Origin: a virus
Length of the DNA: 33,300 nucleotides
Reading direction: 5' to 3' (one strand)
Virus record (IMG/VR): IMGVR_UViG_3300036716_000145
Span: 1 to 33,300 of that record
Below, piece after piece: positions 29,236-33,300 of this stretch. Each line of letters opens with the position of its first letter. The stretch's first letter is position 1. The notes below the pieces were generated by a model, which saw only the letters and a list, made by a program, of their open reading frames with translations, did no database searches and was not told where the DNA came from. The translations under genes were made by a program, and so were the position numbers.

Positions 29236-29466
29236 ATCGTTTGATCCTCTATATTATTTATTCCTACACCATTGATTCAATTGATCATTTTTTAACCAGA
29301 TTGATCATTATTTAACCAATTATACCCTATTTAGCCCTTTTATATGAGTAAAAGTGAGTTTATTGTTTATCCTTATAAGAATTCGATATAAAAAACGATG
29401 TATACATTGTTGACATCTGTCAATATATAGATAGAATAGATACCACACAAACAGAGAGGTAATACC
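29236..29466. promoter_or_regulatory. Second divergent control region, late and early promoters with repeats
   Basis: Plus promoter: TTGACA (29410-29415) and TAGAAT (29432-29437), spacing 16, before the tiny early genes. The -35 box is half of a perfect dyad TTGACA-TC-TGTCAA (29410-29423). A 10-bp palindrome ATGTATACAT lies at 29398-29407. Minus side: a TATAAT at 29324-29319 could serve terS. Just downstream, two direct repeats TTGATCATTWTTTAACCA at 29281-29298 and 29301-29318 are 20 bp apart, in a position to act as operators. Confidence 0.55.
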
Positions 29467-29685
29467 ATGACAAACTACATTTTAGTAAAAGGTTTAACAA
29501 TCACAAATTATGACGACATAGAGCGCATATATGTTGTAGAGAGTGTCACGGATGATGGTGAAACTATAACCACTTGCGGCCATCGTATTGGGTGGGATCA
29601 CATGATGCCCCAGAATGCGTTAGTTGTTTGGGGCAAGTCAGGTAGACGAGTTATGCATTCTGTATCAACAGACTATGTTAAGTAG
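29467..29685 (+). CDS. Tiny early gene 1, hypothetical
   Basis: A 72-residue protein (MTNYILVKGLTITNYDDIER, then YVVESVTDDGETITTCGHRI). It has a mixed strand-rich pattern and no family that I recognise. It has a strong ribosome site (AGAGAGGTAATACC) and is the first gene after the TTGACA promoter. It is probably among the first proteins made, where host takeover or anti-defence factors are usual; that role is inference. Confidence 0.7.
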   Translation: MTNYILVKGLTITNYDDIERIYVVESVTDDGETITTCGHRIGWDHMMPQNALVVWGKSGRRVMHSVSTDYVK

Positions 29686-29742
29686 TTAAATAGGTAGCAT
29701 TGTTTTAGATCAGTGCTACTCATTGTAACTATTTAAATAACT
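29681..29742 (+). ncRNA. Long RNA hairpin filling the spacer between early genes 1 and 2
   Basis: Inner stem 29694-29702 pairs with 29711-29719 (nine pairs, one G-U, eight-base loop). Outer stem 29686-29693 pairs with 29729-29736 (eight pairs), extendable to 29681/29742 with small defects. The structure runs from the stop codon of gene 1 to just before GAGG of gene 2. It has no T-run, so termination is unlikely; an RNase III-type processing site or stabiliser is plausible. Confidence 0.55.
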
Positions 29743-29755
29743 GAGGTAATACAAC

Positions 29756-29968
29756 ATGACAATTAAGACAATATTTGACCCATTATCTGCCAATATAAAA
29801 GAATCTAAGCGTGCCTACGATATCGCATGGCTTGGACTGTTAAATTATAAAGGTAGCGACAGCATGGAAGTAGTCGCGCTAGAGAACGCTTTACAGTGTG
29901 CCTCCGATAATTGCCTAAATGCTTACAAGGCGTTCGATAACACTTATTACGCTTTACCTAAGGGCTAA
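29756..29968 (+). CDS. Tiny early gene 2, hypothetical
   Basis: A 70-residue helical protein (ANIKESKRAYDIAWLGLLNY, then VVALENALQCASDNCLNAYK). No recognised family; two Cys six residues apart are present. The ribosome site is CTGAGGTAATACAAC. It sits between two structured spacers, a hairpin upstream and a hammerhead ribozyme downstream; its stop codon lies in the internal loop of ribozyme stem I. Confidence 0.7.
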   Translation: MTIKTIFDPLSANIKESKRAYDIAWLGLLNYKGSDSMEVVALENALQCASDNCLNAYKAFDNTYYALPKG

Positions 29969-30026
29969 ACTTACCTGATGAGACTAATGGGGATTAGTCG
30001 AAACGCCTTAGGGCGTAGTAAGACCC
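29961..30026 (+). ncRNA. Type I hammerhead self-cleaving ribozyme
   Basis: Stem I: CTTAC (29970-29974) with GTAAG (30018-30022). Core CTGATGA at 29975-29981. Stem II: GACTAAT (29982-29988) with ATTAGTC (29993-29999), loop GGGG. Core GAAA at 30000-30003. Stem III: CGCC (30004-30007) with GGCG (30012-30015), loop TTAG. Cleavage triplet GTA (30015-30017), cut expected between 30017 and 30018. GGG (29962-29964) can pair with CCC (30024-30026) outside an internal loop, as needed for tertiary contacts. All conserved core positions match. Confidence 0.88.
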
Positions 30027-30050
30027 AATAACATAATAGAGGTAACAAAC

Positions 30051-30284
30051 ATGAAACCAACAGTATACGATATAAAGCAATCCTTAGCGCTTGGCCCTCA
30101 TTTCTTTAGCCGTGACACTTTTCGGTTCTTTGGTCAAACCATGTCTAGCTTTAAAACTGACTGGCACAACAAAGATAAAGGCATTGTAAGAATATACGCG
30201 CCTATGAGAGACCATACAGGCCAAAGAATGGGAACAACAGAAAGATTCGTTGATATTAATACTTTTATGGAGGTGACAGCATGA
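30051..30284 (+). CDS. Tiny early gene 3, conserved phage protein
   Basis: A 77-residue protein with HFFSRDTFRFFGQTMSSFKT and VRIYAPMRDHTGQRMG, a pattern found in small proteins of many phages; the function is not established. The ribosome site is AGAGGTAACAAAC, 16 bases after the ribozyme. Ribozyme cleavage would leave this gene at the start of a new mRNA with a 5' hydroxyl and a leader of 33 bases. Stop overlaps the next start (ATGA). Confidence 0.75.
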   Translation: MKPTVYDIKQSLALGPHFFSRDTFRFFGQTMSSFKTDWHNKDKGIVRIYAPMRDHTGQRMGTTERFVDINTFMEVTA

Positions 30285-30439
30285 AAACTAACGACCTTTA
30301 CGAGCACAGCGAGTTTACGCACTGGCTTTCACAAATGCCTGAAAATGTAGCGTGTAATTACCGAGAGGAAATGGTTGATCTACACGGTACGCGAGTTGAG
30401 ATAATCTTTTACATACCAGACGAGGAGGTGACACAATGA
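30281..30439 (+). CDS. Tiny early gene 4, hypothetical
   Basis: A 52-residue acidic protein (MKTNDLYEHSEFTHWLSQMP, ending EIIFYIPDEEVTQ). Good ribosome site GGAGGTGACAGC before ATG. It overlaps both neighbours by ATGA, which supports translation. No family recognised. Confidence 0.65.
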   Translation: MKTNDLYEHSEFTHWLSQMPENVACNYREEMVDLHGTRVEIIFYIPDEEVTQ

Positions 30440-30627
30440 GACTAGATAACATCGAAGCGTTAAAGATACGCAACAGGAACGAGAGGGCAGAGAGATACTT
30501 AGCCCTTAAAAGACATGATAAAGCCGTTAGATCGACGCACAGAACGGATATAAGCATATCGTTCATAGCAGGCTTAACTGTAGCCGTGTTGGTCATGGGC
30601 TACCATATGCACGTTGGAGGGTTTTAA
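30436..30627 (+). CDS. Tiny early gene 5, basic membrane-anchored protein
   Basis: A 63-residue protein. The first 40 residues are basic and helical (ALKIRNRNERAERYLALKRH), the rest is one membrane segment (ISFIAGLTVAVLVMGYHMHV). Ribosome site GAGGAGGTGACACA. The layout, cytoplasmic basic part plus C-terminal anchor, suggests a membrane-tethered factor. Family unknown. Confidence 0.65.
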   Translation: MRLDNIEALKIRNRNERAERYLALKRHDKAVRSTHRTDISISFIAGLTVAVLVMGYHMHVGGF

Positions 30628-30628
30628 A

Positions 30629-30832
30629 ATGACACAGAAACAACGCATACTGGACTACTTGGAGCGTGGCCATACACTGACACGCTTGAACTCTTGGAAG
30701 ATGCTTGGCATATTAGAATGCCCTGCCAGAATCTGCGAGTTAAAACAAGACGGCCATGACATAAAGACAGAACGGTTAACAGTAACTAATAAATATGGTG
30801 AGAAGGTATCTATCGCCAAATGGAGGCTGTAA
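30629..30832 (+). CDS. Tiny early gene 6, small helix-turn-helix protein
   Basis: A 67-residue protein resembling the HTH_39 type domain common in phages: QKQRILDYLERGHTLTRLNSWKMLGI then CPARICELKQDGHDI. This is a winged helix-like DNA-binding pattern. ATG 30629 is chosen behind GGAGGGTTTTAAA; an in-frame TTG at 30614 is less likely. It is coupled to the next gene by TAATG. A regulator of early transcription is plausible. Confidence 0.75.
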   Translation: MTQKQRILDYLERGHTLTRLNSWKMLGILECPARICELKQDGHDIKTERLTVTNKYGEKVSIAKWRL

Positions 30833-31008
30833 TGGAAAAACAGGAAATCTTTAACATGATAGAGCGTTATTACGATGTTGACCTAGATAATTGCACAATG
30901 ACCCACGAAGATTGGATTAATGAAATCGTAACCGCTTTGACAGATTATAGGTATATAGATAAATTCAAACTGATGCTCGAAGAATACAACAAGGAAATGA
31001 GTGCCTAA
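30832..31008 (+). CDS. Tiny early gene 7, hypothetical
   Basis: A 58-residue acidic helical protein (MEKQEIFNMIERYYDVDLDN, then INEIVTALTDYRYIDKFK). No family recognised. Ribosome site GGAGGCTGTA inside the end of the previous gene. It is the last gene of the operon; a terminator follows 24 bases later. Confidence 0.65.
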   Translation: MEKQEIFNMIERYYDVDLDNCTMTHEDWINEIVTALTDYRYIDKFKLMLEEYNKEMSA

Positions 31009-31032: not shown

Positions 31033-31058
31033 AAGCCTCCATCATGGGGGCTTTTTAT
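31033..31058 (+). terminator. Terminator of the tiny-gene operon
   Basis: AAGCCTCC (31033-31040) pairs with GGGGGCTT (31046-31053), one G-U pair, loop ATCAT, followed by TTTTTATTT. It ends the plus-strand operon and overlaps the tail of the metallophosphoesterase gene on the other strand. Confidence 0.85.
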
Positions 31059-33111: not shown

Positions 33112-33300
33112 CTACTTCACCTTTGTTAGCTGATATTCTTTACCGTCAATAGTTGCAATTTTGCCTTCCAGATTATTCCGCCTGTCTAGCGTTATTCCTC
33201 TACTAGAGCTTTCATGGTAAGTCACATTACTTTCCTCATCGTATTCATATTTAACCCAGTCACCGTCAGAGTATTCAATATAAGTCACATTACCTTGAGT
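33112..33300 (-). CDS. YD-like repeat protein, partial at window edge (3' part)
   Basis: The frame enters from the right edge and ends at TAG 33112-33114. It reads TQGNVTYIEYSDGDWV, then EYDEESNVTYHESSSRG, and ends EYQLTKVK. Bases 33161-33286 are identical to 1-126, so this is the C-terminal part of the gene at 338-1. At the edge it skips one 21-residue unit found in the other copy (CTENSDGERVK and following). The TAG overlaps the GTG/ATG start region of the zinc-ribbon gene (TAGTGATG). Confidence 0.75.
   Translation of the reverse strand, partial: TQGNVTYIEYSDGDWVKYEYDEESNVTYHESSSRGITLDRRNNLEGKIATIDGKEYQLTKVK
33161..33286. repeat. Terminal direct repeat, identical to 1-126
   Basis: 126 bases are identical between the two window ends. 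At the next base (127 against 33287) they part, and the right end continues with sequence matching 190-203. That offset is 63 bp, one unit of the coding repeat. This indicates a circular or permuted genome of about 33,160 bp with a repeat-number variant at the join. Confidence 0.85.

Follow-up and report, generated by a model that had tools for sequence, protein, structure and literature searches.

A compact type I hammerhead in an early-operon spacer of an uncultured phage: a probable mRNA processing element that exchanges with an intergenic hairpin

A compact type I hammerhead lies in an early-operon spacer of an uncultured phage, where it very probably processes the early mRNA and is proposed to form a pseudoknot. 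The phage is represented by a 33.3-kb IMG/VR virus record, and this whole stretch is the window analyzed here. In the sequences compared, the motif is complete, all of its stems covary, its boundaries are sharp, it is placed between many gene pairs, and it exchanges with an intergenic hairpin, hereafter module B. Cleavage, pseudoknot formation, and an effect on expression are inferred for the hammerhead of the window. Among deposited phages, the terminases nearest to that of the window are those of Burkholderia phage BcepC6B (51%) and Pseudoalteromonas phage vB_Pun_Y3 (44%). No DNA match to the right part of the window was obtained among GenBank phages, and a search of bacterial genome contigs found no bacterial hosts. 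A 136-bp stretch within a gene rich in repeats recurs at the two ends of the record (1-136 and 33161-33296), the copies being 98.5% identical; this reflects an overlap of the termini or else tandem gene repeats.

The early operon consists of seven small genes on the + strand (29467-31008), located between a promoter-like site and a terminator-like hairpin (Table 1). The frequency of promoter-like sites around the operon is not above that in shuffled sequence. Only two gaps, of 70 and 82 nt, are present in the operon, the first containing module B and the second the hammerhead; the remaining neighboring genes overlap by 4-14 nt. The promoter scan found no promoter within the hammerhead spacer. 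No function emerged from PHROGs or Pfam for either of the genes flanking the hammerhead, and the downstream 77-aa protein has no match among GenBank phages.

The first-pass annotation had placed a complete type I hammerhead at 29961-30026, and this assignment is confirmed. At 29969-30027 (+), stem I, CTGATGA, stem II, GAA, stem III, U16.1, and A17 follow one another in order. The core has the type I form (CUGANGA ... GAA with A15.1-U16.1 and H17), and the three stems, with stem I open, have covariation support. The minimum-free-energy fold, at -20.2 kcal/mol, is exactly the hammerhead three-way junction, only moderately better than the folds of shuffles (z -1.84). When both strands of the window were scanned with a strict type I descriptor, this element was the sole match, and surrogate windows generated with a first-order Markov model (n = 600) yielded three loose matches, none with all stems of at least 5 bp. 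Hammerhead numbering predicts cleavage at 30017/30018, in agreement with the position named earlier. As also described there, the element fills the spacer between the stop codon (29966-29968) and the next Shine-Dalgarno, at about 30039.

Table 1. Positions of the early-operon features and hammerhead parts in the window
Feature	Position	Strand	Remark
Promoter-like TTGACA-16-TAGAAT, head of early operon	29410..29437	+	11/12 consensus matches
Module B, 22-bp interrupted intergenic hairpin, alternative spacer	29680..29734	+	fold z -3.68
Upstream gene, 70 aa	29756..29968	+	no known family
Stem I, 5' strand CTTAC	29970..29974	+	pairs with 30018-30022
Catalytic core CTGATGA (C3-A9)	29975..29981	+	read in sequence; 7 bases invariant in 18 distinct aligned copies
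Stem II, GACTAAT (29982-29988), loop GGGG (29989-29992), ATTAGTC (29993-29999)	29982..29999	+	
Core GAA (G12-A14, 30000-30002) plus A15.1 (30003)	30000..30003	+	sequence; invariant in relatives
Stem III, A15.1 (30003), CGCC (30004-30007), TTAG, GGCG (30012-30015), U16.1 (30016)	30003..30016	+	fold
Predicted cleavage site after A17 (30017), GUA triplet	30017..30018	+	deduced from hammerhead numbering
Stem I, 3' strand GTAAG	30018..30022	+	pairs with CTTAC
CCC, putative pairing partner of the GGGG loop (pseudoknot)	30024..30026	+	
Downstream gene, 77 aa	30051..30284	+	no known family
Terminator-like hairpin, operon end	31033..31053	+	

One detail of the earlier description has to be revised. An outer GGG/CCC pairing across an internal loop had been proposed as an extension of stem I, and it appears in the fold. 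We reject it because the GGG (29962-29964) is coding sequence, within the final codons of the upstream gene, and most relatives with other upstream genes lack it. Judging from the conserved letters, the likeliest partner of the CCC is the GGGG loop of stem II, in a pseudoknot. The loop is GGGG in every relative, even where the scan pattern left it free, ACCC follows stem I in the relatives, and the CCC and the GGGG loop always occur together, invariant. As the GGGG/CCC pairs never vary within the family, this contact is put forward as a proposed one. Perreault et al. (PMC3088659) described and tested a pseudoknot of this type, between loop II and the 3' flank, in hammerheads. Across 33 further viral type I hammerheads, the complementarity between loop II and the 3' flank was 3.76, vs 3.12 ± 0.14 for re-dealt partners (0/500), as exemplified by GTAGGAC/GTCCTGC in contig L036 and TGGCT/AGCCA in L038. 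Longer pseudoknots between these two regions, up to 7 bp, are found in other viral type I hammerhead families (L036, L093, L022, L038, L116, and L118).

Three pattern scans of IMG/VR recovered the module of the window and, besides it, numerous type I hammerheads of other viral families. The family of the window comprises at least 22 distinct copies in about 35 IMG/VR contigs, many of them short; L141 and L144 have an additional, more divergent second copy. The covariation alignment comprises 18 distinct copies and excludes those with one extra base ahead of stem II. In this alignment, 98.3% of the cells are paired, vs 34-44% with slid partners, and double changes occur at eight pairs: two in stem I, five (of seven) in stem II, and one in stem III. 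In stem I, one pair changes between U-A and C-G with a U-G intermediate, and another between C-G and A-U; in stem III, the second copy of L141 has a compensatory G-C to A-U pair. Covariance of the stems in related phages, the lack of which the first-pass annotation had named as refuting its reading, is present in all three stems. The core and loop II/CCC stay constant across the relatives while the stem II letters vary. In L160, L163, L165, L166, L168, and L172, an extra T adjoins the catalytic core between A9 and stem II (CTGATGATGACTA...), and some relatives have a U.U mismatch at 10.1/11.1; either feature could weaken activity in those relatives. The sequence family is absent from the GenBank phage and bacterial genome collections searched, with only short module matches of 80-92% in GenBank phages. 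Elsewhere in IMG/VR, a single viral contig (L134, 592-2935, - strand) has five distinct type I hammerheads in a stretch of about 2.4 kb; Rfam reports none of them at the gathering score.

The spacer regularly lies behind a stop codon and ahead of a Shine-Dalgarno. Its 5' edge is sharp, with identity falling from nearly 1.0 within the module to about 0.28, the background level, immediately upstream. Script-called genes around 28 hammerhead and 9 module B spacers with distinct surroundings fall into 17 upstream and 14 downstream families in shifting combinations, counts that are approximate because some ORF calls are uncertain. One automatic upstream family, "U8", was discarded as a wrong-frame ORF, the real gene being the 70-aa MTDFTAK gene. 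Two hammerheads flank one gene in L009 and in L141/L144, and module B together with a hammerhead flanks one gene in the window, L051, L138, and L139. Relatives of the 77-aa gene are found behind module B in L125 and behind a promoter leader in L126. The L126 relative (95%, upstream of 2607) is apparently promoter-proximal in its operon; therefore, the place of this gene in the operon moves.

The drop in identity at the module edge and the reassortment of gene families around two spacer types are also what speaks for a module kept mainly as a shared joint, through which early cassettes would be exchanged by homologous recombination, with cleavage secondary or absent. We consider this explanation unlikely. 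A pure joint requires no compensatory stem changes, yet eight pairs have them. Moreover, the core and loop II/CCC are retained though the letters of stem II differ, and a structurally unrelated hairpin occupies the same slot.

This hairpin, module B, is present in the window and in L051, L125, L138, L139, L154-L159, L178, and L179. Its outer part is conserved and its inner stem variable. In L138, L178, and L179, a different inner stem, likewise paired, stands in its place, and four pairs have double changes among eight distinct copies. With 22 pairs and interruptions, module B has the form of an RNase III site, in that it is an irregular duplex between genes, some two helical turns long. By this analogy, we hypothesize that it is probably an RNase III site, and it is possible that it is another RNA element. 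Matches of module B to miRNAs were below gathering scores and were rejected as chance matches to a long hairpin. Four downstream gene families occur behind either spacer: the 77-aa gene (hammerhead in the window, L123, and L124; module B in L125), the 70-aa MTDFTAK gene (L009; L139), the MKAIQIK gene (L051 and L141; L178), and the MTI[EQ]IHG gene (L165; L179).

Because the hammerhead recurs between many gene pairs and alternates with the hairpin, it probably cuts a shared messenger into single-gene pieces, which agrees with the earlier suggestion that mRNA of an early operon is processed there. We propose that the RNA would fold as RNA polymerase passes, with the GGGG of loop II pairing with the CCC just past stem I, and that co-transcriptional self-cleavage after A30017 would separate the early messages. 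Hammerhead cleavage leaves a 2',3'-cyclic phosphate upstream and a 5'-hydroxyl downstream. The upstream message would end shortly past its stop codon, where the hairpins of stems II and III would precede the terminal 2',3'-cyclic phosphate, and the downstream message would have a 5'-hydroxyl on a 33-nt leader containing the Shine-Dalgarno. Module B would separate messages likewise, through a host enzyme, so that the two spacers would split the seven-gene transcript into three units. Each cut would leave a structured 3' end behind a stop codon and a short leader with a Shine-Dalgarno.

Instead of constitutive processing, cleavage could be regulated, acting as an on/off control responsive to a metabolite, Mg2+, or a protein, as has been raised for phage hammerheads (PMC3088659). 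The module, at 59-61 nt with short loops, is without an aptamer-like extension and serves many unrelated genes, which makes such control decidedly improbable.

The Rfam type I hammerhead model, suggested in the first-pass annotation as a check, did not recognize the element: RF00163 (Hammerhead_1) gave 10.9 bits, below the 34-bit cut-off. The nearest Rfam model is RAGATH-1-hammerhead (RF03152), in which the core order is alike; unlike its members, the window element scores only 17.0 bits vs the gathering score of 56.3. At gathering score, Rfam matched neither the window nor any of 17 loci, most of them with clear type I hammerheads; phage hammerheads are thus missed by an Rfam search alone. 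A sequence that resembles a hammerhead by chance or is inactive, or a hairpin of the ordinary intergenic kind, would suit the scores under the Rfam cut-offs and the moderate fold z-score, but is hardly credible given the 0/600 surrogates, the covariation, and the conservation.

Several precedents are available for the preferred reading, a self-cleaving processing element. Perreault et al. (2011, PMC3088659) reported hammerheads that flank prophage genes and cleave in vitro and in E. coli, as well as clusters of phage hammerheads around single small genes of changing identity; 4 of 18 consensus-matching hammerheads were inactive in vitro. For the hammerhead of haloviruses HF1/HF2, a 5' end has been mapped no more than 3 nt away from where the ribozyme cleaves (PMC3088659). 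A 2017 review considers the role of prokaryotic and phage hammerheads an open question (PMC6155905). The window hammerhead shares with the bacterial and prophage examples (PMC3088659) the core, the type I topology, and the clustering around single small phage genes, to which the proposed loop II pseudoknot would be added. Unlike them, it belongs to a new sequence family and alternates with a hairpin module. Like the HHphage hammerhead of HF1/HF2, it lies directly upstream of a tailed-virus early gene, the mapped 5' end being a feature of HHphage. HHphage is, however, a variant hammerhead discussed with high-salt activity (PMC3088659), whereas the window core is canonical and nothing found suggests a halovirus. 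Since prophage hammerheads, gene clusters, the pseudoknot, and the halovirus early-gene case were published in 2011 (PMC3088659), the window hammerhead is a new family within an already described type. The T7 early transcript is divided at five RNase III sites (PMC4858673), which likewise serve to process RNA between the genes of a phage early operon; module B has such a form, and the hammerhead, unlike these sites, requires no protein.

The exchange of the hammerhead with module B looks new; no earlier description was found in the literature searched, which mostly excluded subscription papers. We tentatively suggest that these phages use a kit in which a ribozyme and a protein-cut hairpin would be functionally equivalent, interchangeable processing spacers that insulate freely reassorting early cassettes; alternatively, module B may be an undescribed self-cleaving RNA. 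Within this family, the occurrence of the same gene behind a hammerhead or an RNase III-like hairpin amounts to a natural swap experiment on mRNA processing.
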